64,000 nt of DNA, from contig NZ_JAHOPH010000006.1 in assembly GCF_019798055.1 (NCBI RefSeq), positions 62,001 through 126,000 on the forward strand, given 5' to 3'. Both the position numbers and the translations under genes were made by a program. Of this stretch, positions 46,518 to 62,221 are shown one piece after another; position 1 is the first letter of the stretch, and every line of letters starts with the position of its first letter. Source of the DNA: Salsipaludibacter albus. Lineage in GTDB: Bacteria; Actinomycetota; Nitriliruptoria; Nitriliruptorales; Nitriliruptoraceae. A model generated the notes under the pieces. It was not told the origin of the DNA. It saw only the letters and a program-made list of their open reading frames with translations, and did no database searches.

Positions 46518-47486
46518 TCACCCGAGATCGCGGCGCAGGGGCTCCCACCAGTCGCGGTTGGACCGGTACCACGCGACCGTCTCGGCCAGTCGCTGGTCGA
46601 ACGGCGCGCTGGGCTCCCAGCCCAGCGCCCGGATCCGCGACGAGTCCACGGCGTAGCGGAAGTCGTGGCCGAGCCGGTCCCGGACGTGGTCGATCGACGA
46701 CGCGTCGGCGCCCAACTGGTCCAAGATCCGGTGCGTCAGCTCGAGGTTGGACAACTGGGCGTCCGCGCCGATGTTGTAGACCGTCCCGGCCTCCCCCCGC
46801 TCCAGGACCAGGGCCAGGGCGGCGCAGTGGTCCCCCACGTGGAGCCAGTCACGTTCGTTGTGCCCGTCCCCGTACAGCGGGACCGGGCGACCCTCGAGCA
46901 GGTTCGTCACGAACAGCGGGATGACCTTCTCGGGGAACTGGTACGGACCGAAGTTGTTGCTGCAGCGTGTCACGACGACGTCCAGGCCATGGGTCGCGTG
47001 GTAGGACAGCGCGAGCAGGTCGGACCCGGCCTTGGAGGCGGAGTAGGGCGACGACGGGGCAAGTGGCGCGACCTCGCTCGCCGATCCGCGTTCGATCGAG
47101 CCGTAGACCTCGTCGGTCGACACGTGGAGGAACCGGTCGACACCCGCCTCGAGGGCGGCCTGCAGGAGGGTGCCCGTTCCCACCACGTTGGTCCGCAGGA
47201 ACACCCCGGGTCCGCTGATCGACCGGTCGACGTGGCTCTCGGCCGCGAAGTGCACCACCGCGTCGACACCGTCCATCGCGGCCGCCACGACCTCCTCGTC
47301 GGCCACGTCACCGTGCACGAAGGTGTGCCGAGGATCGGCGTCGAGCTCGTCGACGGTCGCACGCACGCCGGCGTAGGTCAGGGCGTCGAGGTTGGTGACC
47401 ACCACGTGGGGGTCGGCGGCCAGGGTCCGGCGGATGAAGTTCGAGCCGATGAACCCGGCCCCACCGGTGACGAGCAGGTGGGCCAT
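46518..47486 (-). CDS. rmlB: dTDP-glucose 4,6-dehydratase
   Basis: A 322-residue extended short-chain dehydrogenase converting dTDP-glucose to dTDP-4-keto-6-deoxyglucose. Visible motifs are LVTGGAGFIGSNFIRR (NAD), VVHFAAESHVDRSI, STDEVYGSI (Thr-Asp-Glu of the dehydratase), the YSASK catalytic pair and RCSNNFGPYQFPEKVIPL. The ATG at 47486 follows GGAGCGCGTCC. It is divergent from wecE, whose enzyme uses this product. No rmlA, rmlC or rmlD is in the window. Confidence 0.95.
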   Translation of the reverse strand: MAHLLVTGGAGFIGSNFIRRTLAADPHVVVTNLDALTYAGVRATVDELDADPRHTFVHGDVADEEVVAAAMDGVDAVVHFAAESHVDRSISGPGVFLRTNVVGTGTLLQAALEAGVDRFLHVSTDEVYGSIERGSASEVAPLAPSSPYSASKAGSDLLALSYHATHGLDVVVTRCSNNFGPYQFPEKVIPLFVTNLLEGRPVPLYGDGHNERDWLHVGDHCAALALVLERGEAGTVYNIGADAQLSNLELTHRILDQLGADASSIDHVRDRLGHDFRYAVDSSRIRALGWEPSAPFDQRLAETVAWYRSNRDWWEPLRRDLG

Positions 47487-47674: not shown

Positions 47675-48838
47675 GTGCCCGTGAACGCGACCATTCCCTT
47701 CAACTCGCCGACCCTGGTCGGCGACGAACTGGCGCTGGTCGAGGAGGCCGTCCGGTCCGGCCACTCGGCGATGGACGGCCCGTTCAGCCGTCGGGTCCAG
47801 GACCTGCTGGCCGAGGTGCACGACGCGGCCGACGTGATCCTGACGACCTCGTGCACCGACGCGCTCGAACTGTCGGCACTCCTGCTCGAGGTGGAGCCGG
47901 GCGACGTCGTCATCGTGCCGTCGTTCACATTCGTGTCGACGGCCGTGGCGTTCGCACGTGCGGGGGCCAGCATCCGCTTCGCCGACGTCCGGCCGGACAC
48001 CCTCGGGATCGATCCCGCCTCGGTCGCGCGCCTGATGGACGACCGTGTCCGGGCCGTGGTCGCGGTGCACTACGGGGGCATCGCCGCCGACGTCGACGGG
48101 CTCGCGGCGGTCCTGGCGGACCACCCCGACGTGACCCTGGTCGAGGACAACGCCCACGGGCTGTTCGGCGAGCGGGCCGGCCGCCCGTTGGGCACGTTCG
48201 GCCGCCTGTCGACCCTGTCGTTCCACGAGACCAAGAACTTCGTGTGTGGCGAGGGCGGCGCGCTGGTCCTCAACGATCCCGCGGACGTGGCCCGGGCCCA
48301 CGTCCTCAAGGACAAGGGCACGAACCGCCGCGCCTTCTTCCGGGGCGAGGTCGACAAGTACACCTGGAAGGACACCGGCTCGTCCTTCGGGCTGTCGGAC
48401 CTGCTGGCGGCGTTCCTGTGGGGCCAGCTGCAACGACGCGACGAGGTCCTCGCCCAGCGCCGCCGGGTCTTCGACCGCTACCACGACACGCTCGCCCCGG
48501 TCGCCGACGACCTCGGCCTGCAGCTGCCGGTCGTCCCGGAAGGCGACGTCCCGGGCTACCACCTGTTCCACGTCCTGCTGCCGGACCCGGCCACGCGCGA
48601 CGTGGTCCTCGACGGCCTGCGTCGCGACGGGATCCAGGCGACGTTCCACTACGTCCCCCTGCACAGCTCGGACGGTGGGCACCGGTTCGGCGACGGCCAC
48701 CAGGACTGCCCGGTGACCGACGACGTCAGCGCCCGGCTGCTGCGACTGCCCTTCTTCAACACCCTGGCCGACGACGACATCGACCGGACCTGCGCGCGGC
48801 TGGTGGCGCTCGTGACCGACGGGCAGGGGCCGAGATGA
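47675..48838 (+). CDS. wecE: dTDP-4-amino-4,6-dideoxy-sugar transaminase (WecE)
   Basis: A 387-residue PLP enzyme close to E. coli WecE (RffA), which aminates dTDP-4-keto-6-deoxyglucose at C4 to give dTDP-Fuc4N. The match runs end to end: TIPFNSPTLVGDELALVEEA, TSCTDALELSALLL, PSFTFVSTAVAFARAGA, VHYGGIAADVD, the PLP lysine Lys187 in SFHETKNFVCGEGGAL, DKGTNRRAFFRGEVDKYTW and FHYVPLHSSDGG. The GTG at 47675 or at 47681 could be the start. Its stop overlaps the next gene (ATGA). With rmlB next door the substrate is made locally. The C4 epimer formed (Fuc4N or Qui4N) is not certain. Confidence 0.93.
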   Translation: MPVNATIPFNSPTLVGDELALVEEAVRSGHSAMDGPFSRRVQDLLAEVHDAADVILTTSCTDALELSALLLEVEPGDVVIVPSFTFVSTAVAFARAGASIRFADVRPDTLGIDPASVARLMDDRVRAVVAVHYGGIAADVDGLAAVLADHPDVTLVEDNAHGLFGERAGRPLGTFGRLSTLSFHETKNFVCGEGGALVLNDPADVARAHVLKDKGTNRRAFFRGEVDKYTWKDTGSSFGLSDLLAAFLWGQLQRRDEVLAQRRRVFDRYHDTLAPVADDLGLQLPVVPEGDVPGYHLFHVLLPDPATRDVVLDGLRRDGIQATFHYVPLHSSDGGHRFGDGHQDCPVTDDVSARLLRLPFFNTLADDDIDRTCARLVALVTDGQGPR

Positions 48839-50355
48839 CCCGACGCATCGGCTTCCTGGGCGAGGCGGCACGGCTGTCCGAGGCACCCTCGGACGGGCTC
48901 GCGACCACCACGTTCGCCCGCGAGCTGCAGGCGGCCGGATGGCTGTGGGACGCGCTCGGCCTGGCCGACATGGCCCACGTCCACGAGCTCACGACCGCCG
49001 GGGTGCTGGACCCGGCCATCGGGCGACAGCTCCTCGCCGACCTGCTGGCGTTCCACGACGACACGCCCGTCGAGGCCGTGACCCTGGACCCGGCCGTCGG
49101 GGACACCTACAACAACCGTGACCGAATGCTCCACGAGCGGTTCGGCGACCGCATGGGCCACGTCCACACCGGCCGCGCACGCCGCGAGGCGACCACGCTG
49201 GCCTGGCACCTGGTCACGCGGTCGATGCTGCTGGACAGCATCCGGGCGACCACCGAGCTCCTCGACGCCCTGCTGGACGTGGCCGACGAGCACCGCATCA
49301 CCGTCCTGCCCGACACCACCTACCTCCAGCACGCCCAGCCGACCTCGCTCGCGCACTGGCTGCTCGGGCATGCCCATCCCGTTGCGCGGGACCTCGACCG
49401 CCTCGCCGCCAGCCTCGCCCTGGTGAACCGGTCCCCCGCCGGATCCGGATCGGTCAACGGCTCCCGATTCCCCCTGGACCGTGCCCGGATGGCGGACCTG
49501 CTGGGCTTCGACGCACCGATCGTGCACACCCGTGACGCGATGTGGGCCCCCGACCTGGCGCTGTCCACCATGTCGTCGGTCCTCGCGGCGATGACGCCGA
49601 TCGACCGGCTGGTCGAGGAGCTCCAGCTGTGGGCGACCAGCGAGTACGGCTTCGTCAGCCTGGCCGACCGGCATGCCCGGACCAGCGTCATCATGCCCCA
49701 GAAGAAGAACCCCTACTCCCTGGCCATGATCCGCGGCCACGCCCGCGAGGTCGTCGGGGACCTCGTGGCCGTGGCCACCACCAACCTGACGCCGTCCGGA
49801 CAGCCCGACAACCGCACGGCGTCCTACGACCGCGTGCCCACCGCCCTGCGGTGGCACGCGGGCTCGGCACGACTGCTCGCGGACGTGCTGCGGGGTGCCG
49901 ACTTCCACGCCGACCGGATGCGGACCGAGGCGCTGACCGGCTTCGCGACCAGCACCGACGTCTGTGACTGGCTGGTCGAGACGACCGACCTCGACAACCG
50001 GACCGTGCACCGCACGGTCGGCCGGGCCGTCCGGGCCGCGATCGACGACGGTCGCGACCAGCTCGCCGCCGCCGACCTCCACACCGCCGCGGAGGAGCTG
50101 GGCGCCGACCTGCCGGACGTCGACCCCGCCGAGCTGGACCGCCTCGGTGACCCCGAGCACCTCCTGTCCCTGCGGACCCAGCTGGGTGGCGCGGCGACCG
50201 TCCCGACGATGCTGGCCGACCTGCGGACGACGGCGCGTCGGGCCACCGTCCCGGACGACCACCCGCTGGCGACCTTCGACGGGCGCTTCCTCGCCACGAT
50301 CGCCGACGCGGCCGGCGTCGGATGGAGCAGTCCGAACGACGAGCAGGACGCCTGA
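48835..50355 (+). CDS. Aspartase/fumarase-superfamily lyase, argininosuccinate-lyase-like
   Basis: A 506-residue cytosolic lyase. The fold marks are clear: HTGRARRE (111-118), TYLQHAQPTSLAHWLLGHA (162-180), SGSVNGSRFPLDR and the superfamily loop TSVIMPQKKNP (283-293, catalytic Ser284). It departs from true ArgH at key points: THLQ is TYLQ (general-acid His replaced by Tyr163), and the fumarate-binding Asn of RSRND is missing (RARRE). With comA directly downstream, the best precedent is the coenzyme M lyase XcbC1 of Xanthobacter, which eliminates phosphate from phosphosulfolactate to give sulfoacrylate. That reaction here is inference. ATGA and TGATG overlaps couple it to wecE and comA. Confidence 0.85.
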   Translation: MTRRIGFLGEAARLSEAPSDGLATTTFARELQAAGWLWDALGLADMAHVHELTTAGVLDPAIGRQLLADLLAFHDDTPVEAVTLDPAVGDTYNNRDRMLHERFGDRMGHVHTGRARREATTLAWHLVTRSMLLDSIRATTELLDALLDVADEHRITVLPDTTYLQHAQPTSLAHWLLGHAHPVARDLDRLAASLALVNRSPAGSGSVNGSRFPLDRARMADLLGFDAPIVHTRDAMWAPDLALSTMSSVLAAMTPIDRLVEELQLWATSEYGFVSLADRHARTSVIMPQKKNPYSLAMIRGHAREVVGDLVAVATTNLTPSGQPDNRTASYDRVPTALRWHAGSARLLADVLRGADFHADRMRTEALTGFATSTDVCDWLVETTDLDNRTVHRTVGRAVRAAIDDGRDQLAAADLHTAAEELGADLPDVDPAELDRLGDPEHLLSLRTQLGGAATVPTMLADLRTTARRATVPDDHPLATFDGRFLATIADAAGVGWSSPNDEQDA

Positions 50356-51143
50356 TGGGCCACACGTTCACCCTGCGCCAGCGGGGCGGCAAGCCGCGGG
50401 ACAGCGGCCGGACCCACCTGCTGGACAAGGGCCTCGGACGCCGCGCGGTCGAGGACCTCGTCGAGGTCGCCGGCGACGTCGTCGACCTGGTCAAGCTGGG
50501 CTGGGGCACCTCCCTGGTGGCCGCCGACGTCCGCGAGCGCGTTCACCAGTACCGCGACGCCGACATCGAGGTGTGCCTGGGCGGGACACTGCTCGAGTAC
50601 GCCTGGCTGCGTGGCGAGCTGGACGCCTACCGCCGCTGGGTGGAGCACCTCGGCATCACGTGTGTCGAGGTGTCGGACGGGTCGCTGGACATCCCCCCGG
50701 ACGACAAGCTGGCGATGATCCGCGACTTCGCCACCGACTTCACCGTCTACTCCGAGGTCGGGAGCAAGGACGCGGACACGATCGTCTCGCCGTCGCGCTG
50801 GGTCGAGGCGGTGCACCGCGAGCTGGAGGCCGGGGCCACCCGGGTCATCCTCGAGGGCCGCGAATCGGGTACCGCGGGCCTGTACCGCCAGTCCGGCGAG
50901 CTGCGGATGGGACTGGTCGACGACCTGGTCCACTCGGGCGTTGCGACCGACCGTCTGGTGTTCGAGGCCCCCGGCAAGACCGGACAGGTCTGGCTGCTGC
51001 GACACGTGGGGCTGGACGTCAACCTCGCCAACATCCGCCCCGACGACGCCGTCGCGGTCGAGACACTGCGGCTCGGACTGCGCTCCGACACCGTGCTCGA
51101 CGTGCTGGGCGACGACACGTCCCCGTCGCGCGGACCACGATGA
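50355..51143 (+). CDS. comA: Phosphosulfolactate synthase (ComA family)
   Basis: A 262-residue TIM-barrel enzyme adding sulfite to phosphoenolpyruvate to form (R)-2-O-phospho-3-sulfolactate, the first step of PEP-dependent coenzyme M synthesis and of sulfolactate synthesis. All family motifs are present: VDLVKLGWGTS (Lys47), VCLGGTLLE (76-81), VEVSDGSLDIP (105-113), YSEVGSKDAD, ILEGRESGTAG, VFEAPGKTGQ (203-211) and LDVNLANIRPDD. The ATG at 50355 shares a base with the lyase stop. No comB, comC or comDE homologue is in the window, so coenzyme M itself is not the obvious end product. Confidence 0.94.
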   Translation: MGHTFTLRQRGGKPRDSGRTHLLDKGLGRRAVEDLVEVAGDVVDLVKLGWGTSLVAADVRERVHQYRDADIEVCLGGTLLEYAWLRGELDAYRRWVEHLGITCVEVSDGSLDIPPDDKLAMIRDFATDFTVYSEVGSKDADTIVSPSRWVEAVHRELEAGATRVILEGRESGTAGLYRQSGELRMGLVDDLVHSGVATDRLVFEAPGKTGQVWLLRHVGLDVNLANIRPDDAVAVETLRLGLRSDTVLDVLGDDTSPSRGPR

Positions 51144-52378
51144 GCCCACGCCTGATGGTCCTCGGTGGCGGACGCCACCAGGTGTCGCTCGTGCGCCGTG
51201 CCCGGGCCCGGGGGATCGACGTCGTGCTGGTGGACTACTACGACCACCCGCCCGCACGTGACCTGGTCGACACCCACCTGCGCCTGTCGACCCTGGACGT
51301 CGATGCCGTCGTCGACGCCGCGCGGGCCCACCACGTCGACGGCGTGGTCACCACCGGGACCGACCTGCCGGTGGTGACCATGGCGGCCGTCGCCGAGGCG
51401 CTCGGCCTCCCCGCGTGGATCGACCGGGCGCACGCGGCCCGGGCGACGACGAAGTCCCTGATGCAGCGGGCCCTGGCGGCCACCGGGGTCCCGATGGCCG
51501 ACCAGCAGGTCCTGGGCCCGGACGACGAGCCCGGCCACGTGGCCCTCCCGGTGGTCGTCAAGCCGGCCGACTCGCAGGGCCAGCGGGGGGTCACCCGGGT
51601 CGACGACCGGATCGACCTCGACGGGGCCATCGCCGATGCCCGGTCCCACTCCCGTGCCGGCACCGTGGTCGTCGAGCGGTTCCTGGACGGTCCCGAGATC
51701 ACCGCCAACGCGTGGGTCGAGGACGACGGGATCGTCCTGCTGGCCGTCAACGACCGGGTGACCGTCAACCCATCACCCCACCTGGGCATCGCCCACCGGC
51801 ACGTGCACCCGACCCGCCACGCCAGCCCCGACCTGTTCGCCCGCCTGGACGACCTGCTGGACCGGATCGCCACGGCCTACGGGATGCGGACGGGGCCGCT
51901 GTACGTCCAGCTCATCCTCACGTCGCGCGGTCCGGTCGTGGTCGAGGCCGCGGCCCGGGTCGGCGGCGGCCACGAGACGTCGTTGTTCCCCCTGGTGGCG
52001 GGATCCGGTGTCGAGGACCGGCTGGTCGACCTCGCCCTCACCGGCTCGTGCGAGCCCTGGGACCACGACATGCGCACCGCCGCCGAGCTGCGGTCCGCCG
52101 GCGTGACCTTCGTGCTCGGCTGGCCGGGGACCGTCGCGACCCTCGCCCCCATGGACTTCGTCGAGGGCACCGTCGAGGGTGGCTGGTACGTGGACGTGGG
52201 CGACCGGCTGGTCGACCTGACGACCAGCCTGGGACGGATCGGCTGGTTCGTCTCGACGGCCGCGGACCGTGCCGAGCTGGACCGTCGCACGGCCGACCAG
52301 TACGCCCGGCTGGAGGTCCGGGCCGCCGACGGCGCGTCGCTGGTCCGCCAGCCCGAGCCGGGCCTGCTGCTCGGCTGA
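51140..52378 (+). CDS. ATP-grasp carboxylate-amine ligase
   Basis: A 412-residue cytosolic ligase. It has an N-terminal Rossmann-like pre-ATP domain (RLMVLGGGRHQVSLVRRARARGIDVVLVDYYD, 4-35) and an ATP-grasp core: LPVVVKPADSQGQRGV (Lys141), VVVERFLDGPEITANAWV (Glu179), and the metal site VVVEAAARVGGGHETSLF (Glu269, Arg273). A C-terminal lid domain ends in LEVRAADGASLVRQPEPG. Members activate a carboxylate as acyl phosphate and join it to an amine or thiol. It overlaps comA by four bases, so a sulfonated carboxylate from that pathway is the likely acid and the WecE amino sugar a plausible amine. That assignment is inference; the substrates cannot be read directly. Confidence 0.88.
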   Translation: MSPRLMVLGGGRHQVSLVRRARARGIDVVLVDYYDHPPARDLVDTHLRLSTLDVDAVVDAARAHHVDGVVTTGTDLPVVTMAAVAEALGLPAWIDRAHAARATTKSLMQRALAATGVPMADQQVLGPDDEPGHVALPVVVKPADSQGQRGVTRVDDRIDLDGAIADARSHSRAGTVVVERFLDGPEITANAWVEDDGIVLLAVNDRVTVNPSPHLGIAHRHVHPTRHASPDLFARLDDLLDRIATAYGMRTGPLYVQLILTSRGPVVVEAAARVGGGHETSLFPLVAGSGVEDRLVDLALTGSCEPWDHDMRTAAELRSAGVTFVLGWPGTVATLAPMDFVEGTVEGGWYVDVGDRLVDLTTSLGRIGWFVSTAADRAELDRRTADQYARLEVRAADGASLVRQPEPGLLLG

Positions 52379-52416: not shown

Positions 52417-53640
52417 TCAGGCCCCGGTGATCTCGACGGCGGTCCGACCGGCTCGACGTCCGGACACGAGCGCCTCGGTGACCCCGGCACCCATGAGGCG
52501 ATTGCGACCGTGCAGGCCACCGGTGACCTCGCCCGCCGCCAGCACCCGATCCACGCTCGTCCGCTGGTCGACGTCGACCACCACGCCACCGAGCTGGTAG
52601 TGCAGGAAGGGCATGACCAGCACGTCCCCGCCCAGCGCACCCATCAGCTCGAGCGTGTGGGCTGCCCGGGGGTACTCGGTGCGGATCCGGGCCACCGGCA
52701 CGTCCGACAGGGTCAGGCGGAAGCCCGGCCCGTGGGGTCCCTCCACCCCGCGGGTGTCGACGTGGTCGAACATCGCCCGGGTGATCGCCAGGCGGTCCGC
52801 GGGCAGCGCGACCAGCTCGTCCCCATGGCGATCGAGCAACCGCGGTCCGGACGACGCGAGGGTCTCGGGGACGCAGCGGCCGGGTGGACCGGGCGGACCG
52901 TCCACCAGGCCGAAGGGCTGGTACTGCCACCGGTCCTCGTCGACCGTCGCCACGCCGAGCCGGTCGAGGACGCGCTGGAACTCGTGGTTGCGGTTGCGTG
53001 GGTTGGTCGTCCTGGTGTCGGTGTCCTCGGCGTGCCCCCAGGAGCCACCGCCGGTCGCCACGACCACCACCTCCGCCGCGAGGTCGGGCCCGGGGTCACA
53101 CACCACGACGACGTGGTCGCCGGCCGGGCGCAGGTCGGTGACGGCGGTGTGCGTCCGCACGTCCACCGCGTCGAGGCGACGACCGAGCAGCGCCAGCAGC
53201 GGCGGGCCCACCGAGTCGCCGATCGTCAGCACCCGGGCCGACGACATGCCGCCGGCGCGGAGTCGCCGCAGGCCACCGTCGGGGAGGCGGTCGAGCTCCA
53301 GGCCCCACGACACCAGCTGGTCCGTGACGTCGGCCGCGTCCTGCACGAGCGCGCGGGCCCGGGCCAGGTCCACCGGGACCCGGGCCGACCTGGCGAGGTC
53401 GTCGATCATCGCCTCGGCGTCGCCCGGCTCCGGACGGGGGACGTGCAGTCCGCCCTGCGCCATGACCGAGTTGCTCCGTGCCAGCGGCCCGTCGGTGACG
53501 AGCACCACCCGTCGGTGCTCGGCCGCGGTCACCGCCGCCATCCGCCCGGCCAGCCCCGCCCCGACCACGACGACCGGGACCCGGACCGGACCGGGGGTCG
53601 GGCCGGCGTGTCCACCCGCCGCGGCAGTGCCTCCGACCAT
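52417..53640 (-). CDS. Fumarate reductase / L-aspartate oxidase-like flavoprotein
   Basis: A 407-residue FAD enzyme of the SdhA/FrdA/NadB superfamily. The FAD motif VVVVGAGLAGRMAAVTAAE is at residues 22-41, with SNSVMAQGGLHVP as the isoalloxazine loop and LHYQLGGVVVD plus AAGEVTGGLHGRNRLMGAGVTEALV at the C-terminus. Compared with NadB, the proton-shuttle Arg (Arg288), the His of HYxxGG (His347) and the Arg of HGxNR (Arg381) remain, but the His of QFHPT is replaced (WQYQPFG). A changed carboxylate pocket with intact hydride chemistry suggests an analogue of fumarate. It converges on the ATP-grasp gene with 38 nt between stops. The ATG at 53640 has AAGGGGCCAGGC upstream. Confidence 0.85.
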   Translation of the reverse strand: MVGGTAAAGGHAGPTPGPVRVPVVVVGAGLAGRMAAVTAAEHRRVVLVTDGPLARSNSVMAQGGLHVPRPEPGDAEAMIDDLARSARVPVDLARARALVQDAADVTDQLVSWGLELDRLPDGGLRRLRAGGMSSARVLTIGDSVGPPLLALLGRRLDAVDVRTHTAVTDLRPAGDHVVVVCDPGPDLAAEVVVVATGGGSWGHAEDTDTRTTNPRNRNHEFQRVLDRLGVATVDEDRWQYQPFGLVDGPPGPPGRCVPETLASSGPRLLDRHGDELVALPADRLAITRAMFDHVDTRGVEGPHGPGFRLTLSDVPVARIRTEYPRAAHTLELMGALGGDVLVMPFLHYQLGGVVVDVDQRTSVDRVLAAGEVTGGLHGRNRLMGAGVTEALVSGRRAGRTAVEITGA

Positions 53641-53651
53641 GCCTGGCCCCT

Positions 53652-53657
53652 TACACT
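53652..53657 (+). promoter_or_regulatory. Candidate -10 (TACACT) for the glycosyltransferase unit
   Basis: TTACACT lies 31 nt before the short ORF at 53688, in the 47-nt space between the divergent flavoprotein and glycosyltransferase units. Any -35 would fall inside the flavoprotein gene. Confidence 0.35.
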
Positions 53658-53687
53658 CGGCGCGTCGACCCACGACCGGGAGCATGC

Positions 53688-53852
53688 GTGGTGACCGGAC
53701 CCAGCGACGACCACGAGGCCCTCGACGGCCGGTGCGACGTCGCCCTCGCGGAGCGTACGGGCCGGGTCGTCCGACCCCCCGCGACGACCCGGGTCGGTCT
53801 GGACGGGACCGCGCACGCGACGGCCGTTACGACCTGCGCCGCCCGCCCGTGA
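53688..53852 (+). CDS. Possible 54-residue leader protein before the glycosyltransferase
   Basis: A short frame with tandem GTG starts (53688, 53691) after GGGAGC. It has strongly GC third positions and a stop that overlaps the glycosyltransferase GTG (GTGA at 53849-53852). The product, with segments HEALDGRCDVALAERTGRVV and ATTRVGLDGTAHATAVTTC, has no family I know. The overlap would give the otherwise ribosome-site-poor glycosyltransferase a translational coupling. The alternative is that this DNA is an in-frame N-terminal extension of the glycosyltransferase from an ATG at 53684; that frame is Arg-rich with poor codon use. Confidence 0.4.
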   Translation: MVTGPSDDHEALDGRCDVALAERTGRVVRPPATTRVGLDGTAHATAVTTCAARP

Positions 53853-54886
53853 GCGGCATCGACCTGTCCGTCGTCGTCCCGACCTACCGCGGCGCGGACG
53901 CCCTGCCCAGCCTGGTCGCCGAGCTCGACGCCGCCCGGGCGACCCTCGGGCTCGGCGCGATCGAGTTGCTGCTGGTCAACGACGGCTCGCCAGACGACAC
54001 CGAGGCCGTCCTGGACCGGCTCGCCGAGCAGCACGACTGGGTCCACGGCATCGACCTGCTGCGCAACCACGGCCAGCCGGTCGCCACCATGTGCGGGCTC
54101 GCCCACGCGCGGGGCGCCCTGGTCGCGACGATGGACGACGACCTGCAGCACCCACCCGACCAGCTGCCCCTGCTGGTCGACGAACTGCGTCGTCGTCCCG
54201 AGCTGGACGCCGTGGTCGGCTCGTGGACACGAGACGAGGGGCTGTTCCGCGACGCCGGCTCCTGGCTGCACGGGATCGCGGACCGCCTCGCCCACGGCAC
54301 CCCGAAGGGCTTCCGGCACTCGGCGTTCCGGGTGATCCGGCGGCCGGTCGTCGAGGCGATGGTCGCCCACCAGACCCGCACCCCGGTCGTCGGGCCGCTG
54401 CTGACCCAGGTCACGACCCGGATCGACAACGTCGACGTCCGCCACGACGATCGGACCATCGGCACGTCGAACTTCCGGACCGCCCATGGCGTGCGCGCGG
54501 TCGTGACCAACTTCATCCAGGGCTCGACGCTGCCGCTGCGGGTGATGAGTGGCTTCGGCCTGGCGACCGCGGCCGTGGCGGTCCTGGCCGGGGTCGTCTT
54601 CGCCGCCCGGGCCCTGTGGGGGGCCGACACGCCACCGGGCTGGCTCTCGACGTTCCTCGCGACCGTGTTCTTCGGAGGCGCGATCCTGTTCCAGATCGGG
54701 CTGGTCGGCCAGTACATCCACGTGATCGTGCGCGAGGTGCGGGGCGCCCCCCGGTGGACGATCCGCCGGACGACCGACGATCCGCCCCTCGCGACCGACC
54801 AACCGCCCCTCGCGCCCGGATCCAGCGAACCGCCACCTCCCGGGGCCGCCGAGGCGCGGCCGGCCGCGACGAGCGACCGAGGATGA
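53849..54886 (+). CDS. GT2 polyprenyl-phosphate glycosyltransferase (GtrB/ArnC/DPM1-like)
   Basis: A 345-residue inverting glycosyltransferase attached to the membrane. The catalytic domain has LSVVVPTYRGADALPSLV, LLVNDGSPDDTEAVL (Asp45), LLRNHGQPVATMCGLAHA and the metal motif TMDDDLQHPP (96-98). Two C-terminal helices (about 231-252 and 268-292, ending GLVGQYIHVIVREVRG) place it with GtrB/ArnC enzymes that load one sugar onto undecaprenyl phosphate. A Pro-rich tail follows. It would be the step linking the nucleotide amino sugar to a lipid carrier before flipping. Its 3' end converges on the flippase gene with 5 nt between. Confidence 0.9.
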   Translation: MSGIDLSVVVPTYRGADALPSLVAELDAARATLGLGAIELLLVNDGSPDDTEAVLDRLAEQHDWVHGIDLLRNHGQPVATMCGLAHARGALVATMDDDLQHPPDQLPLLVDELRRRPELDAVVGSWTRDEGLFRDAGSWLHGIADRLAHGTPKGFRHSAFRVIRRPVVEAMVAHQTRTPVVGPLLTQVTTRIDNVDVRHDDRTIGTSNFRTAHGVRAVVTNFIQGSTLPLRVMSGFGLATAAVAVLAGVVFAARALWGADTPPGWLSTFLATVFFGGAILFQIGLVGQYIHVIVREVRGAPRWTIRRTTDDPPLATDQPPLAPGSSEPPPPGAAEARPAATSDRG

Positions 54887-54891
54887 GACGG

Positions 54892-56094
54892 TCAGGGTGA
54901 CCGGGGTCGCCGCGGCGTGAGTCGTCGTGACCCGAGCAGTACGACCGCCAGCGCCTCCGTCAGCACGAACCAGGTCAGCACGCGCACCAGCGCACTGGAC
55001 GGCACGGCCAGCCCCAGGGCACCGAGCACCGTGGCCAGCACCCAGGCCCGGGCGAGCCCCGCGGTGTCGTCCTCGGTCGTGTACCGACTGGTCATGACCA
55101 GGGTCCCCAGCGCCAGCGTCGCGCCGGCCGAGACGGCCCCGGTGGCCACCGGGGGCAGGGCCGTGTCCGGACCGAACGCCAGGGCCACGATCCAGGGACC
55201 GACCAACCCCCCGACCAGCGCCGCCACCCCCGCGAGCAGGACCGTGGCGACGGCGATCCGACCCCGGGTCAGCCCGCGCCGGCGATCGTCGGACCACAGC
55301 GCGGTCAGGCGCATGCTCGCCCCCAGCAGGACGAGGTAGGGAGCGCGCGCCAGGGACAGGGTGCCGAACACGGCCGTCACCAGGCGATCGGGGGCACCCA
55401 GCAGGGCCATCAGGATGGGCGCGCCGGCCAGGGACACCTGCGACAGGGAGTTGGCCGCGGAGAGCTCGCCGACGTCGCGCAGCGAGACCGCGGGGCCACC
55501 GGCCCGGCTGAACCGCAGCAGTCCGGGCCATCCCAGCAGGATCAGTGGTCCCAGGACGAGCGTGCCCAGGAACACCTCCACCGACAGGCCGGACAGCACG
55601 ACCACGCCGGCGCCGACCAGGCGCAACAGGTTCTCGCACCCGATCATCAGCGCCGCGGCCGAGGTGCGGTCCTGGGCGACCAGCTGTCCACGGACCCAGC
55701 CGATGGGGACCGCCGCGGCCACCACCACCCCCATGGTCACGGGACTGACCCAGCTGTCGGTGCGCAGCACGTCCGCACCCAGCAGCGCCGCGACCGACGC
55801 CGTCGCCACGCCTGCGGCGACCGCCAGGAGCATCAGCCTGGTCGCGGTCCGGCGCACGGCCGCGCCCCCGTCGCGGCGCAGCTCCCGGATCGTCCAGTGC
55901 TGCACCGGGAAGGTGAGCACGGCCACCGACACCGACCAGACACTCCAGACCACGGACACGGGCGCGAAGGCGGCCGCACCGTAGGCCAGCGTCCCGACCC
56001 GGATCCAGGCCAGGGCGACCAGTCCGTTGACGAGCGACCCGGCGCCCAGGGCCACGGCCGCCCGATCCGTGGCCGGACGCCGACGCCGCGTCAC
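54892..56094 (-). CDS. Wzx-like polysaccharide flippase
   Basis: A 400-residue polytopic protein with about 12 hydrophobic segments and no soluble domain, resembling the MOP/Wzx lipid-linked sugar exporters ([64 protein letters not shown]). Arg-rich ends face the cytoplasm. Its ATG at 56094 overlaps the cysC stop in ATGA, so it is translated as the last gene of cysD-cysN-cysC-flippase. That is an unusual partner for sulfate activation and argues that the exported glycan needs activated sulfur. Confidence 0.82.
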
Positions 56095-56723
56095 GGGCCG
56101 GAGACGTCGAGCCGTCCCAGGACCACCTCGACGAGGTCGGCGACCTCGTGGCCGACCGTGTCCAGCACCAGGTCCGGGTCGTCCGGCGCCTCGTACGGAT
56201 CGTCGATGCCGGTCATGCCGGTCAGCTCGCCGGCCCGGGCGCGGGCGTACAGGCCCTTGGGATCGCGCCGCTCGCAGACCTCCAACGGGGTGTCGACGAA
56301 CACCTCGAGGAACGCCAGGCCGGCCAGCTCGTGGGCCTGGCGGACCCGGGCACGGTCGGCGCGGTACGGGCTGATGACCGGCACGAGCACGACCAGCCCG
56401 GCGTCGGCGAACAGCCGGGCGACCTCGCCGACCCGGCGCACGTTCTCGCTGCGGTCCGCGGCCGAGAACCCCAGGTCACCGTTCAGGCCGAACCGCAGGT
56501 TGTCCCCGTCCAGGCGGTAGCAGGCGCGGCCCCGCGCGACCAGCTCGCGCTCGACGGCGGCGGCGACGGTCGACTTGCCGGAGCCCGACAGCCCGGTGAA
56601 CCAGGCCGTGATGCCCCGGCCGGTCCGGTTGCCTGACCGACGTCCACGGTCGACCCCACCGTCGTGCCAGACGACGTCCGGGTGGTGGCCGGGTCCGTCG
56701 GGCCCGGGGGCCTGGGCGCTCAC
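56091..56723 (-). CDS. cysC: Adenylylsulfate (APS) kinase
   Basis: A 210-residue kinase phosphorylating APS to PAPS. The P-loop [21 protein letters not shown] is near residue 45, with [39 protein letters not shown] and [13 protein letters not shown] following. [26 protein letters not shown] (APS contacts) and [13 protein letters not shown] complete the match. About 40 non-conserved residues precede the core. The GTG at 56723 overlaps the cysN stop (GTGA), so CysN and CysC are separate here rather than fused as in mycobacterial CysNC. Confidence 0.96.
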
Positions 56724-58000
56724 GTCGCCGGACCCAGGACCATGCCGGCACCGACCGTGTCGTTGGTCGACTCGTCGACCAGGATGAACGATCCGGTCGC
56801 CCGGTTGCGCCGGTACTCGTCGAACAGGATCGGACGGGTGGCACGCAGGCGCATGCGGCCGATCTCGTTGAGGGCCAGGCCGGTGGCGTCCTCGTCGCGG
56901 TGCAGGGTGTTGATGTCGAGCCGGTAGTGGAAGTCCTTGACCATCACCCGGCCCCAGTTGGTGGTGTGCTTGATCGCGAGCTTGTCGCGCTCGTGCAGGC
57001 CACGCTCGTCCGACATCCAGCACACCATCACATCCAGGTCCTGGCCGTTGTGCGGCATGTTGTTGGGTCGGGCCAGCATGTCCCCCCGGGACACGTCCAG
57101 GTCGTCCTCCAGCCGGATCGTGACCGACATCGGGGGGGCGGCCTCGGAGATGGGCCCGTCGTAGGTGTCGATCGCGGCGATCCTGCTCTCGTAGCCCGAT
57201 GGCAGCACGACCACCTCGTCGCCGACCTTGAGGACACCGCTGGCGACCTGGCCGGCGTAGCCGCGGTAGTCCTGGTGGTCCATCCGGTGGGGCCGGATGA
57301 CGTACTGGACCGGGAACCGCACGTCGATGAGGTTGCGGTCCGAGGCGATGTGGATCTCCTCGAGCAGCCGCAGCACCGGCGGGCCCTGGTACCAGGGCAT
57401 GTGGTCGGACTGGTCCACGACGTTGTCCCCGCGCAGGGCCGACACCGGCACGAATCGCAGGTCGTGGATGTTGAGCCGGGCCGCGAAGTCGCGGAAGTCG
57501 TCGACCACGGCGTCGTAGGCCGCCTGGTCGTAGTCGACGAGGTCCATCTTGTTGACGCACACGACCAGGTGGGGGACCTCCAGCAACGAGGCGATGAACG
57601 AGTGCCGGCGGGTCTGCTCGATGACCCCGTTGCGGACGTCGATGAGGATCAGGGCGACGTCCGCGGTCGACGCACCGGTGACCATGTTGCGCGTGTACTG
57701 GATGTGGCCGGGGGTGTCGGCGAGGATGAACGACCGCTTCGGGGTCGCGAAGTAGCGGTAGGCCACGTCGATGGTGATGCCCTGCTCGCGCTCGGCACGC
57801 AGCCCGTCGGTCAGCAGGGCCAGGTCGACGTAGTCGGTCCCGCGTTGCCGGGAGGCCTCCTCGATCGCCTCGAGCTGGTCGGCGAAGATCTGCTTGGTGT
57901 CCAGCAGCAGCCGGCCGATCAGGGTCGACTTGCCGTCGTCGACCGACCCGGTCGTCGCCAGCCGCACCAGTTCCATGGAGTCCGTCGTGTCCGCCGTCAT
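56720..58000 (-). CDS. cysN: Sulfate adenylyltransferase GTPase subunit
   Basis: A 426-residue translation-factor-like GTPase driving APS formation with CysD. G1 [17 protein letters not shown], the G2/G3 region ([33 protein letters not shown]) and G4 [11 protein letters not shown] are complete. Beta-barrel domains 2 and 3 follow, with [24 protein letters not shown]. The ATG at 58000 shares a base with the cysD stop (TGATG). Confidence 0.97.
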
Positions 58001-58911
58001 CAGAAGTAGCCCTGCTTCTTGCGGTCCTCCATGGCGGCCTCGGTCATGCGGTCGTCGGCCCGGCTGGCACCGCGCTCGGTGACCCGGGTGACCCGGACCT
58101 CCTCGATGATCTCGTCGATCGTCGTGGCGGTGGACTCGAACGCGCCGGTCACCGGCATGTCCCCCACCGTGCGGAAGCGCACCGAGCGTTCCTGCACCTG
58201 CTCGTCACCGGTCATCTGGATGTGGTCGGACTCGGCCATCCACATCCCGTCGCGCGAGAACACGCGTCGCGGGTGGGCGTAGTAGATCGACGGCAGCTCG
58301 ATCTGCTGGTCCCGGATGTAGCCCCAGACGTCGGCCTCGGTCCAGTTGGAGATCGGGAAGACGCGGACGTGCTCGCCCCGACGGGTCCGGGCGTTGTAGA
58401 GGTCCCACAGCTCCGGACGCTGGGCCTTGGGGTCCCACTGGCTGAACTCGTCGCGGAACGAGAAGACCCGTTCCTTGGCCCGAGCCTTCTCCTCGTCACG
58501 ACGTGCACCACCGAACACGGCATCGAACTCGTGCTCCTCGATGGTCGCGACGAGTGGTTCGATCTGGAGGCGGTTGCGCGACGCGTTGCGGCCCCGCTCC
58601 TCGACCAGGCGACCCTCGTCGATCCAGTCCTGGACGGACGCAACCAGCAGGTCGGCGTCGTAGTGTGCGACCTGCCGGTCCCGGAACTCGATGACCTCGG
58701 GGAAGTTGTGCCCGGTGTCGACGTGCAGGATCGGGAACGGCAGCCGCGCGGGATGGAAGGCCTTGACGGCCAGGTGCAGCACGACCGCCGAGTCCTTGCC
58801 ACCGGAGAACAGCAGCACCGGCCGCTCGGACTCGGCGACGGCCTCGCGGAGGACGTGGATCGATTCCGCCTCGAGCGCGCCGAGGTGGGAGAGCGTGTAG
58901 GCAGACGACAT
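58000..58911 (-). CDS. cysD: Sulfate adenylyltransferase catalytic subunit
   Basis: A 303-residue PP-loop ATP sulfurylase subunit. It shows [20 protein letters not shown] (PP-loop), [48 protein letters not shown] and [13 protein letters not shown]. The end RKKQGYF is the typical CysD C-terminus. It heads the cysD-cysN-cysC-flippase unit and is divergent from the SLC13 permease across only 45 nt, so the two promoters must be tightly packed. No APS/PAPS reductase or sulfotransferase is in the window. Confidence 0.97.
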
Positions 58912-58956: not shown

Positions 58957-60717
58957 ATGTGGGAGCTGTGGTTCGTCTCGGCGGTCGTCGTCGGGGTGCT
59001 CATCCTACTGGTGCGCGAAGTGACCTCCCCGGCAGCCACGATGGTCGCCGCGATGGTGGTCGTCCTGGTGGCCGGCGTGGTCACCCCGGCCGAGGCACTG
59101 TCGGGATTCTCCAACCCGGCGCCGGTCACCGTCGCGGCCCTCTACGTCCTCGCTCGTGGTGTCGAGAAGACCGGCGCCCTGGTCCCGGTGGTGCACCGCC
59201 TGCTGGGGGCGGGACGCAACATGCGCCGGTCCCTGGTTCGCCTGCTCGCACCCGTGACGATCTCGTCGGCATTCCTCAACAACACGCCGATCGTGGCCAT
59301 GCTGCTGCCGACCGTGCGGGCCTGGTGCGACGAGCACGACCTCGCACCCAGCCGCTTCCTGATGCCTCTGTCGTTCGCCGCCCTGCTGGGCGGCACGATC
59401 ACGGTGATCGGCACGTCGACCAACATCGTGGTGTCCGGGCTGCTGGAGGAGAGTGGCCGCCAGCCGCTGGGCTTCTTCGAGCTCGCGACGGTCGGGCTGC
59501 CGATCACGCTGGGTGCCTTCGCACTGTTGATCCTGCTCGCCCCGATCGTGCTGCCCGATCGGCGCTCGATCCGCCAGGAGGTCGACGACGAGCAGCGCCA
59601 CTTCGTCATGGACATGCGGGTCGGCCCGGAACTGGACGGCAGCACCGTCGGCGAGGCGGACCTTCGCCACATGTCGTCGGTGTTCCTGGCCTCGCTGGTC
59701 CGCGACGGGGAGCTGGTCGCCCCCGTGACCCCCGAGACCGTGCTCCACGAGCGTGACCGCGTCCGGTTCGTCGGCCGGGTCGACGACATCGACACGCTCC
59801 CCCGGATCCCCGGACTGTCCCGCACGGCCGACGACCACATCGAGGATCTCGACACCACGGACGCGCGCTACTTCGAGGCCGTCATCGGCATGGACTCGCC
59901 GCTGCTGGGACGCACGCTGAAGAAGGCGGACTTCCGCAGCACCTACCAGGGCGTCGTCATGGGCATCCACCGGTCGGGACACCTGATGGAGGGCAAGCTC
60001 GGCACCGTCCCCCTCCACGTCGGCGACACCCTGCTGGTGCTGGCCGACCCGGACTTCCACGAGCGCTGGCGGGACCGGCGCGACTTCCTGGTGATCGCCG
60101 ATTCGGCCCACACGCCCCCGGCGACGTCGCGCCAAGCCGCCATCGTCGGCGTCGTCACCCTGGCCATCATCGTTGCCGCCTCGACGGGACTGCTCCCGAT
60201 CCTGCAGGCCAGCCTCCTGGGGGGGATGGCCCTGGTGCTCACCCGCGTGATCAGCCCGTCCGAGGCACGCGACGCGGTCGACCTGGACGTGGTCGTGCTG
60301 ATCGCGTCGGCCTTCGGGCTGGCCGCCGCGGTCCAGAACTCGGGGCTGGCCGACCTGGTGGCGGGTGGCATGGTCGGGATGCTGGACGGCTTCGGGTCCC
60401 GCGGCGTGCTGATCGGGCTGTTGGTGGCGACGATCGCGCTCACCGGTCTGGTGACCAACAACGCGGCCGCCCTGCTGATGTTCCCCATCGCGGTCGAGAC
60501 GGCGGGCCAGCTCGGGCAGGATCCGCGTGGGTTCGTGGTGGCCGTGGCGATCGGCGCCTCGGTCGACTTCCTGACCCCGATCGGCTACCAGACCAACACG
60601 ATGGTGTACGGACCCGGCGGCTACCGGTTCTCGGACTACCCGCGGCTGGGCAGTCCCCTGACCCTGCTGGTGATCCTCATGGTCGCCCTGATCGTCCCGA
60701 CGGCCTGGCCGGGCTGA
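58957..60717 (+). CDS. SLC13/DASS family permease with two RCK_C domains, probable sulfate importer
   Basis: A 586-residue membrane transporter. N-terminal helices contain SAFLNNTPIVAMLLP and GTITVIGTSTNIVVSGLL, the sodium/anion SNT motifs. A soluble middle (about 200-380) holds two RCK_C/TrkA_C domains (GPELDGSTVGEADLRHMSSV and DSPLLGRTLKKADFRSTYQGVVMGIHR). The C-terminal half repeats the fold with TGLVTNNAAALLMFPIAV and TPIGYQTNTMVYGPGGYRFSDY. This layout matches algal and bacterial Sac1/SLT-type sulfate permeases, and the divergent cysD supports sulfate. GTGGAGGAGGACGACGCCTG precedes the ATG. Its last 41 bp overlap the converging kinase gene. Confidence 0.9.
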   Translation: MWELWFVSAVVVGVLILLVREVTSPAATMVAAMVVVLVAGVVTPAEALSGFSNPAPVTVAALYVLARGVEKTGALVPVVHRLLGAGRNMRRSLVRLLAPVTISSAFLNNTPIVAMLLPTVRAWCDEHDLAPSRFLMPLSFAALLGGTITVIGTSTNIVVSGLLEESGRQPLGFFELATVGLPITLGAFALLILLAPIVLPDRRSIRQEVDDEQRHFVMDMRVGPELDGSTVGEADLRHMSSVFLASLVRDGELVAPVTPETVLHERDRVRFVGRVDDIDTLPRIPGLSRTADDHIEDLDTTDARYFEAVIGMDSPLLGRTLKKADFRSTYQGVVMGIHRSGHLMEGKLGTVPLHVGDTLLVLADPDFHERWRDRRDFLVIADSAHTPPATSRQAAIVGVVTLAIIVAASTGLLPILQASLLGGMALVLTRVISPSEARDAVDLDVVVLIASAFGLAAAVQNSGLADLVAGGMVGMLDGFGSRGVLIGLLVATIALTGLVTNNAAALLMFPIAVETAGQLGQDPRGFVVAVAIGASVDFLTPIGYQTNTMVYGPGGYRFSDYPRLGSPLTLLVILMVALIVPTAWPG

Positions 60718-62221
60718 CCGGCCGGGCGAGCCCGACGGCGCCCAGGCACCGCTGGACGACCTGCTCGGGGGTGTCATCTCCGTCGACCAGGGTCGCCCCG
60801 GACCAGTCGACCCAGGCCTCGCGCATCCGTTCGTGCACGTCGGTCCCGGCGTCCGAGGCATCGCCCCGGCGTGCCCGGAGTCGCGCATGTGCCACTTCGG
60901 CGGGCACCCGCAACTCGACCTGCCGGAGGTCCGCCCGGACCTCGCGCGCGACCGAGGCCGCCACCCGGCGGTGCAGCGGGTCCGCCCACGAGGCGTCCAG
61001 CACGACCGACACCCCGTGGGCCAGCAGCGCACGGGCGCGATCGAGCAGCTCGGCGTAGGTACCGGCCGTGACCTCGGCGTCGTAGCCGCCCGTCCCGGCC
61101 GGCTCGTCGTGGGCGCGTCCCAGCAGGTCCTTGCGCACCTCGTCGGACCGCAGGACGACCGCCCCCAGCTGGTCCGCCAGTCCTCGCCCCACGGTGGACT
61201 TGCCCGTCCCGGGAAGACCGCCGACCAGGACCATGCGAACGCGCGCCCGGTGCAGGTGGCGGTGGGCGAGGTCCAGGTGGGCGACGACCGTCGCGGCATC
61301 GGGCTCGTCCACCAGGCACGCGACCTTGGCGCGCACGCTCGCCCGGTACGCGACGTGGTGATGGGCGAGGCCGTCGTCGCGCCGGTCACCCAGGAACTCC
61401 GCGTGACGTTCCAGCAGCTCCGCGGCGAGGTCGGCCCGCCCGAGGCGCTCGAGGTCCATGGCCAGGAACGCGACGTCGGCCAACACGTCGTTGATGCGGT
61501 AGCGATCGGCGAAGTCGAGGCAGTCGAGGATCCGTGGCCCGTCGTCCAGGCAGAACACGTCGTCGGCCACGAGGTCGCCGTGACCGTCCCGGATCCAGCC
61601 ATCTGCCAGGCGCTGCTCGAGCAGGGGACCCCGCCCGTCCAGCCAGGTGGTCGCCTCGTCGGCGACGGCCGCCACCAGGTCGGGCGGTGCCAGGTCGGGG
61701 TGTGCCTGCAGCACCGCCAGGTTGTCCTCCCAGTTCGTGCGCAGGGCGGCGGGGCCGGCAAGTTCCCGACCCCGTGGCGAGGGCGGTCGGTCCGCGTGGA
61801 ACGCCGCGATCGTCCGGGCGACCCGGCCGATGCACTCCCCCAGGTCGTCACCGGCGCGAGCCCGGGTCGCCAGGCGGGCACTGTCCGGCAGGCGGCGCAT
61901 CACCACGGCGACGTCGACGACCGCGCCGTCGTCGTCGGTGACGTCGTCGTCGGTGACGTCGGCGAGCCCGAGGTGGACGTCGTCGCCCAGCCGGCGGTTC
62001 AGCTCGAGCTCGCGACGGCAGGCCTCCACCCGGTCCGACAGCCGCCGGAAGTCGAGGAAGCCCAGGTCGACGGGTCGCTTCCGCTTGACCACCAGGTCGC
62101 CGACGAACCACAGCCGCGCGCTGTGGGTCGTCACGGTGCGCTCGACAGCTCGGCCGTCGACGAGGCCGTCGGCGGTCACGACCAGGTCGAGCCGCTCGTC
62201 GGGGGTGCGGGTCCGGCCCAT
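60677..62221 (-). CDS. Aminoglycoside-phosphotransferase-like and P-loop kinase fusion
   Basis: A 514-residue two-domain protein. The N-terminal part (about 20-330) has a protein-kinase-like APH fold: VVKRKRPVDLGFLDF, WIRDGHGDLVADDVFCLDD (catalytic HGD) and ILDCLDFADRYRINDVLADVAFLAMDLE (metal Asp). The C-terminal part (about 335-495) is a small-molecule P-loop kinase: VLVGGLPGTGKSTVGRGLADQL, VLRSDEVRKDLLGRAHDE and GVSVVLDASWADPLHR. Such fusions are widespread in proteobacteria and actinobacteria with unknown substrate. An in-frame DNA repeat gives DVTDDDVTDDD near residue 88. AGGAGGACCACC precedes the ATG. Confidence 0.85.
   Translation of the reverse strand: MGRTRTPDERLDLVVTADGLVDGRAVERTVTTHSARLWFVGDLVVKRKRPVDLGFLDFRRLSDRVEACRRELELNRRLGDDVHLGLADVTDDDVTDDDGAVVDVAVVMRRLPDSARLATRARAGDDLGECIGRVARTIAAFHADRPPSPRGRELAGPAALRTNWEDNLAVLQAHPDLAPPDLVAAVADEATTWLDGRGPLLEQRLADGWIRDGHGDLVADDVFCLDDGPRILDCLDFADRYRINDVLADVAFLAMDLERLGRADLAAELLERHAEFLGDRRDDGLAHHHVAYRASVRAKVACLVDEPDAATVVAHLDLAHRHLHRARVRMVLVGGLPGTGKSTVGRGLADQLGAVVLRSDEVRKDLLGRAHDEPAGTGGYDAEVTAGTYAELLDRARALLAHGVSVVLDASWADPLHRRVAASVAREVRADLRQVELRVPAEVAHARLRARRGDASDAGTDVHERMREAWVDWSGATLVDGDDTPEQVVQRCLGAVGLARPVSPARPSGRSGRP

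Follow-up and report, generated by a model that had tools for sequence, protein, structure and literature searches.

The bacterial pathway of coenzyme M synthesis is described in Xanthobacter autotrophicus Py2, where it involves XcbB1, XcbC1, XcbD1 and XcbE1. A preliminary description of the locus studied here had drawn a parallel to a superfamily enzyme of Xanthobacter that eliminates phosphate directly after phosphosulfolactate synthase. This enzyme is XcbC1 which, according to PMC8727900 (citing Partovi 2018), removes phosphate from phosphosulfolactate by beta-elimination to give sulfoacrylic acid. The locus belongs to Salsipaludibacter albus (NZ_JAHOPH010000006.1), and the whole stretch of DNA analyzed (the window, 64,000 nt with 72.5% G+C) lies on contig C56 of a draft genome of 4.25 Mb with an estimated completeness of 97.3%. 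Homologues of both ComA/XcbB and XcbC are encoded there as a pair. Unlike in Xanthobacter Py2, no homologue of XcbD, XcbE or Xaut_5051 lies beside the pair, its neighbors being an ATP-grasp ligase, a fumarate-reductase-like flavoprotein and amino-sugar genes.

Each of these components resembles a known system. Argininosuccinate lyase (ArgH) has the superfamily fold, catalytic Ser loop and C-terminal domain of the window lyase, but carries RSRND and TH where the latter has RARRE and TY, the identity to the E. coli enzyme and to the genome's own ArgH being 27-29%. Fumarate reductase and L-aspartate oxidase have the same fold and the same catalytic Arg, His, Arg and Glu positions as the window flavoprotein. 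In the WecE/dTDP-Fuc4N branch of enterobacterial common antigen synthesis, RmlB and a WecE-type transaminase, both of which have counterparts in the window, yield dTDP-4-amino-4,6-dideoxygalactose. The acetylating enzyme of that branch is WecD, from which N-acylation by the window ATP-grasp with a sulfonated acid would differ. The glycan on type B flagellin of C. difficile likewise carries a sulfonate through an amide on an amino sugar, and an ATP-grasp gene of family PF13535 is required for its taurine-containing peptidylamido-Fuc3N cap (PMC5207245, PMC5207246). There, taurine is the sulfonate and is accompanied by Ala and Gly; the passages on it mention neither ComA nor XcbC.

For the window we propose the following pathway. 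ComA would join sulfite and phosphoenolpyruvate into phosphosulfolactate, from which the XcbC-family lyase would eliminate phosphate to leave sulfoacrylate; by analogy with characterized homologues, we regard these two steps as very probable. The flavoprotein would then reduce the double bond of sulfoacrylate to give 3-sulfopropionate, which its residues and neighborhood make fairly probable. Next, the ATP-grasp enzyme would activate the carboxylate with ATP and form an amide with the amine of a 4-amino-4,6-dideoxy sugar nucleotide produced by RmlB and the WecE-type aminotransferase, a step slightly favored by its residues, its neighborhood and the occurrence of relatives in flagellin and capsule clusters. 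Finally, the glycosyltransferase family 2 (GT2) enzyme and a possible flippase would pass the sugar to a lipid carrier or glycan and export it. We infer the later part of this scheme (reduction, amide formation, the amino-sugar acceptor and the surface glycan) from sequence and gene context. As a whole, a route in which the operon makes a C3 sulfonate and places it on a surface amino sugar is a tentative proposal, with the chances falling just short of even.

Results

The lyase and ComA

By sequence, the lyase belongs to the XcbC family of phosphosulfolactate phospho-lyases. It is composed of the Pfam families Lyase_1 and ASL_C2, and its structure matches include ArgH structures. Among NCBIfam models, XcbC ranks first (420.5 bits, cut-off 575), followed by argH (253.4 bits, cut-off 279.5). 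The residues highlighted in the preliminary description, RARRE (from residue 114), TYLQ (from residue 162) and Ser284 in TSVIMPQKKNP, are all present as claimed. In a 95-row alignment, R[A/P/T]RRE, TY and the Ser were found in 84 of 84 XcbC-family rows, including the window and XcbC1, whereas four ArgH-like rows have RSRND or RSSGD, and TH. We take XcbC1 to be Xaut_5053 on plasmid record CP000782, having matched the name to the tag by gene order and recall; this protein has RARRE and TYLQ and is 39% identical to the window lyase. The two key papers on XcbC are Partovi 2018 and Wu 2022.

In the lyase tree, the XcbC-family clade comprises 58 of 69 rows with the window inside and ArgH on the other side (Shimodaira-Hasegawa-like approximate likelihood ratio test, SH-aLRT, 99). 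Long outgroup branches make the root of this tree untrustworthy; the split from ArgH is independent of where it is placed. The genome also encodes a separate ArgH (C22:44020, 502.9 bits, cut-off 279.5). We rejected an ArgH identity for the window lyase on its RARRE and TYLQ motifs, its argH score below the cut-off, the tree and this separate true ArgH. Cleavage of argininosuccinate is thus unlikely, as had been suggested, and the opposite picture of a lyase inside ArgH in a genome with no other argH fails on both counts.

ComA reaches 267.7 bits against PF02679 (cut-off 25.2), has 1u83 (E 1.4e-59) and then 1qwg as its nearest solved chains, and is the sole ComA of the genome. The remainder of the coenzyme M pathway was searched for in the own genome with the XcbD model and with XcbD and XcbE proteins. 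No protein of the genome exceeded the cut-off for XcbD (best model match 147.5-148.9 bits, cut-off 600) or XcbE (best 212.5 bits, cut-off 450), so the earlier remark that later coenzyme M genes are missing nearby holds genome-wide for these two. The XcbD candidate is closer to the pcaB model (232.5 versus 148.9 bits), the best XcbE-like protein is a 1-aminocyclopropane-1-carboxylate (ACC) deaminase by NCBIfam (521.6 bits, cut-off 392), and both are encoded on contigs other than that of the window. A full coenzyme M pathway was thus looked for and not found in this genome, 97.3% complete by estimate. Since XcbD and XcbE were not found, we place the system outside the coenzyme M pathway, with which its opening steps are alike.

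A recurrent gene cassette

To place the pair in context, 86 loci were scored: the best 80 of 138 sequence relatives, five plasmid records and the window. Xcb partners were present at 38 loci, ComA and the lyase without Xcb partners (hereafter the cassette) at 22, and neither at 26. The two classes contrast strongly. A carboxylate ligase, either one of three ATP-grasp types or an AMP-binding ligase, is encoded at 21 of the 22 cassette loci and at none of the 38 Xcb loci; the sequence of the sole ligase-less cassette locus (L068) ends just after comA. The flavoprotein (12 of 22) and a sugar aminotransferase (9 of 22) are both absent from all 38 Xcb loci and from the 26 others. Genes for GT2 (7/22) and for CysH, which would supply sulfite (5/22), were likewise found at no Xcb locus. 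The recurrence of the cassette suggests that sulfoacrylate is diverted to another product, as the preliminary description had supposed.

The lyase and ComA trees indicate co-inheritance. All 19 cassette ComAs in a 48-row ComA tree form one clade apart from the Xcb ComAs (SH-aLRT 99). The window lyase falls into a seven-row clade with L007, L008, L009, L010, L018 and L060 (SH-aLRT 100), which is recovered in the ComA tree too (SH-aLRT 97). Loci L016, L037, L042, L044 and L068 also group in the ComA tree (SH-aLRT 91), as they do in the lyase tree, where the L031 lyase joins them although its ComA does not. The aminotransferases of L008 and L010 are 61% and 60% identical to that of the window, respectively, and the GT2 of L008 is 55% identical to its window counterpart.

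Record titles assign the ComA-lyase pair to Actinomycetota, Pseudomonadota, Nitrospirota, Bacteroidota and Verrucomicrobiota as well as to an archaeon of the Asgard group; a large share of these records are metagenome bins, and some of the titles look doubtful. Culturable carriers of the cassette include Psychrosphaera and Pseudoalteromonas shioyasakiensis. A second cassette was not found in near kin, where the lyase was sought in 101 relatives and 396 phylum genomes and the flavoprotein in the 396; conservation within the family is therefore unusable as evidence. Loci L099, L100 and L101 have Xcb-type partners. For 19 short loci from the relatives and phylum genomes, about 1.5 kb was covered on each side: ten have an Xcb partner and nine (L137-L145) are unclassed at that span.

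The flavoprotein

In sulfoacrylate, a sulfonate takes the place of one of the two carboxylates of fumarate, of which it is an analogue. The model of the flavoprotein (predicted local distance difference test score, pLDDT, 88) is nearest in fold to the soluble fumarate reductase Osm1 (VIA Z 41.3, root-mean-square deviation 2.4 over 370 residues), other near folds being urocanate reductase and NadB (Z 40.0). The positions of FrdA R287, H355, R390 and E245, in E. coli numbering, are kept in all 12 cassette flavoproteins. Unlike FrdA and NadB, which have Thr at the substrate-site position T244, all 12 have Pro there. Such a pattern would be expected if a fumarate-type reductase had acquired a changed acid-binding site, but it falls short of proof. 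At L007 (Psychrosphaera sp. B3R10) the flavoprotein gene is followed by one for a 123-residue 2Fe-2S protein that matches only the N-terminal domain of SdhB (SdhB/FrdB), and L009 has the same order (its 2Fe-2S protein recognized by 40% identity).

The ATP-grasp ligase and its glycan context

The ATP-grasp model (pLDDT 90) has 4dim and the L-amino acid ligase 3vot as its nearest folds. Relatives of this enzyme outside the system were examined in five plasmid records, and in three of these they share a capsule, polysaccharide or flagellin cluster with an aminotransferase of the DegT type. DegT aminotransferases adjoin the relative in Parabacteroides, within a polysaccharide locus, and in Enterococcus hirae, within a capsule locus. 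A Tritonibacter flagellin cluster combines the relative with AAC(3)-like and DUF4910 genes. Their presence there means that the latter two genes may be unrelated to the sulfonate pathway. The relative in Acidiphilium has no sugar context, and the one in Acetoanaerobium is unannotated.

Within the cassette, the WecE-type transaminase exceeds the NF008687 cut-off at the window, L008, L010 and L042. The window protein stays below the stricter TIGR02379 (396.9 versus 434.85 bits), and the aminotransferases of L018 and L060 are over no cut-off. L009 encodes PseB and PseC over cut-off beside an AAC(3)-like acyltransferase; L007 encodes PseI over cut-off, a Maf flagellin glycosyltransferase and FliD. 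These genes place the cassette of these two marine Gammaproteobacteria within a flagellin glycosylation island or next to one. Together with the aminotransferases, the flagellin and capsule contexts and the C. difficile precedent make an amino sugar the likeliest acceptor by analogy. Among the papers listed in our literature search, outside which most subscription journals fell, none connects sulfopropionyl, sulfopropionamido, sulfoacryloyl or sulfolactyl groups with bacterial glycans, and none has phosphosulfolactate synthase together with an ATP-grasp.

A separate observation concerns NCBIfam NF002563 (PRK02186), a fused ATP-grasp and lyase whose N-terminal half matches the window ATP-grasp and whose C-terminal half matches the window lyase. 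Such fusions may perform related chemistry.

Organization of the locus

The genes are collected in Table 1. The aminotransferase overlaps the lyase by 4 bases, as does ComA the ATP-grasp, and the lyase TGA (50353-50355) and the ComA ATG (50355-50357) have base 50355 in common, confirming the one-base overlap noted previously. The preliminary description was right about the lyase-ComA pair and overlooked the flanking aminotransferase, the ATP-grasp and the convergent flavoprotein.

Table 1. Genes of the sulfonate locus and its surroundings in the window.
Product	Coordinates	Strand	Evidence or remark
RmlB-type dTDP-glucose 4,6-dehydratase	46518..47486	-	NCBIfam TIGR01181, 432.6 bits (cut-off 365.1)
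WecE-type sugar-nucleotide 4-aminotransferase (dTDP-4-amino-4,6-dideoxygalactose transaminase)	47675..48838	+	NCBIfam NF008687, 450.8 bits (cut-off 375)
XcbC-family lyase, proposed phosphosulfolactate phospho-lyase	48835..50355	+	XcbC model, tree, motifs
ComA, phosphosulfolactate synthase	50355..51143	+	Pfam PF02679
ATP-grasp carboxylate-amine ligase	51140..52378	+	PF13535, 44.9 bits (cut-off 27)
Flavin adenine dinucleotide (FAD) enzyme, fumarate reductase / L-aspartate oxidase family	52417..53685	-	FAD_binding_2, 116.3 bits
GT2 glycosyltransferase	53849..54886	+	PF00535, 87.5 bits; start codon provisional
Membrane protein, flippase-like by eye	54892..56094	-	Cassette membership unsure
CysC, CysN, CysD (sulfate activation)	56091..58911	-	APS_kinase, 226.5 bits; CysN and CysD models

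The RmlB-type gene is divergent from the operon, and its product would supply the 4-keto-6-deoxy sugar. The GT2 gene comes next after the flavoprotein gene, and the C-terminal part of its product has a membrane-spanning look by eye. For the following membrane protein no Pfam family was found at E 0.1; an unclassified membrane open reading frame of cassette L010 (12626-13786) appears similar by eye, unaligned with that of the window. An anion permease and CysC, CysN and CysD are encoded a few kb downstream of the operon, and CysH, the 3'-phosphoadenosine 5'-phosphosulfate (PAPS) reductase, is found away from the window on contig C45 (locus L129). The CysC/CysN/CysD set may be a source of PAPS for sulfite; it may instead serve general sulfur assimilation. 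Adjoining the permease on the minus strand is the gene of a large protein (60677-62221) whose C-terminal domain is AAA_33 kinase-like.

Other settings of the lyase

The survey also met the lyase in other surroundings. A compact triad of Deltaproteobacteria type, without the flavoprotein, is seen at L029, L030, L032, L040 and L046, and also at L028, L033, L038, L043 and L045; it consists of a divergent second ATP-grasp with almost no Pfam signal, an XcbC-like lyase and, on contigs that extend far enough, ComA. In a Heimdallarchaeota record (CP070695; L016:6867-10261) an XcbC-family lyase and ComA lie beside a PylC-like ATP-grasp and a PAPS reductase-like gene. Chloroflexota loci L011, L020, L023, L026 and L034 have an XcbC-family lyase without ComA in a conserved setting of FGGY kinase, response regulator, PrsW-type protease and DUF429. 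A mostly actinobacterial group of XcbC-family lyases (L066, L070-L077, L079-L082, L084-L086 and L137-L145) shows neither ComA nor an Xcb partner in the DNA examined.

At L031 (5405-8784, Desulfovibrio sp. UBA6079), an XcbC-like lyase and a very divergent ComA (26% identical) are accompanied by tripartite tricarboxylate transporter genes and a fumarate hydratase-type gene. This locus, which falls below the ComA threshold and was counted among the 26 with neither feature, may represent a catabolic use of the same chemistry. Records L030, L074, L079 and L082 are titled Klebsiella pneumoniae or Bifidobacterium breve; these titles look doubtful, the lyases grouping with environmental Deltaproteobacteria or freshwater actinobacteria.

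Discussion

Sequence comparison supports the interpretation first put forward for this pair. Several observations nevertheless weigh against the longer route proposed here. The lyase lies below the curated XcbC cut-off NF052535 (420.5 versus 575 bits); this model is of the kind "exception" with a strict cut-off, so that the miss bars the formal name XcbC but not membership of the wider family. ComA, similarly, is below the cut-off of the archaeal equivalog TIGR03849 (238.6 versus 280 bits). Ten of the 22 cassette loci, L029, L030, L040 and L046 among them, are without the flavoprotein in the DNA examined, which means that reduction is not universal. In the window, the flavoprotein gene is convergent with the operon and not part of it, no obvious electron donor gene lies beside it, and Gln at the position of FrdA His232, the second substrate-site His of fumarate reductase, is confined to the window, L008 and L010. 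The nearest solved relatives of the ATP-grasp join amino acids or purine precursors. Among 101 relatives, only the own genome has a cassette-type lyase, and the Fisher p values of the survey overstate independence because cassette loci supplied its queries and the surveyed loci are akin to one another.

The ATP-grasp could instead couple the sulfonate to some other amine, such as an amino acid, and so yield a small diffusible product of the dapdiamide kind, with the sugar genes as unrelated neighbors. Dapdiamides contain fumarate-derived amides, and the enzyme matches L-amino acid ligases and dapdiamide synthase; yet sugar 4-aminotransferases accompany nine of the 22 cassette loci and none of the 38 Xcb loci, and ATP-grasp relatives without ComA sit in capsule, polysaccharide and flagellin clusters, making this outcome unlikely. 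A different departure would be direct ligation of sulfoacrylate, the flavoprotein doing something else and the Deltaproteobacteria lyase-ComA-ATP-grasp triads being the minimal form. The ten flavoprotein-free cassettes fit this, but the retention of fumarate-reduction residues and the restriction of the flavoprotein to the cassette (12/22 against 0/38 and 0/26) make it quite unlikely. That the flavoprotein is an oxidase or dehydrogenase acting on cysteate or another sulfonate, so that the ligated acid is not 3-sulfopropionate, seems improbable: in sequence the flavoprotein is no closer to FrdA (25%) than to NadB (26%), but no enzyme for adding an amine to sulfoacrylate is evident beside it, and the SdhB-like 2Fe-2S partner at L007 and L009 suggests an electron supply for reduction.

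The remaining explanations question the opening steps or their purpose. The locus might simply start ordinary bacterial coenzyme M synthesis, with later genes elsewhere; steps 1 and 2 would be identical, and the genome does hold XcbD-like and XcbE-like superfamily members. Given that these candidates fit pcaB and ACC deaminase better, that they lie on other contigs and that cassette ComAs form a clade apart from Xcb ComAs (SH-aLRT 99), we find this decidedly improbable. More improbable still is a divergent ArgH, or a lyase acting on another succinyl adduct, whose adjacency to comA is unrelated to phosphosulfolactate. The ASL_C2 domain and the likeness to ArgH structures are what recommend it, against which stand the motifs, the tree, the NCBIfam ranking, the separate true ArgH and the matching ComA and lyase clades.

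We retain the route from sulfoacrylate to a sulfonated amino sugar as our working proposal. In its broadest form, that of a widespread undescribed route through 3-sulfopropionate to amino sugars and sulfonated surface glycans, flagellin included, in at least five phyla, it is possible but is put forward with a little more reserve than for the window itself. If true, sulfonated N-acyl sugars built from phosphoenolpyruvate and sulfite would constitute a new class of bacterial glycan, bringing with them a new enzyme activity (sulfoacrylate reductase) and a new glycan decoration, and the first steps of coenzyme M synthesis in bacteria would serve a second product line. The genes of such a route would have been hidden by annotation under names like argininosuccinate lyase and L-aspartate oxidase. 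Bacterial surface sulfonates feed the organosulfur cycle, and the gene set would provide a direct marker of their producers.

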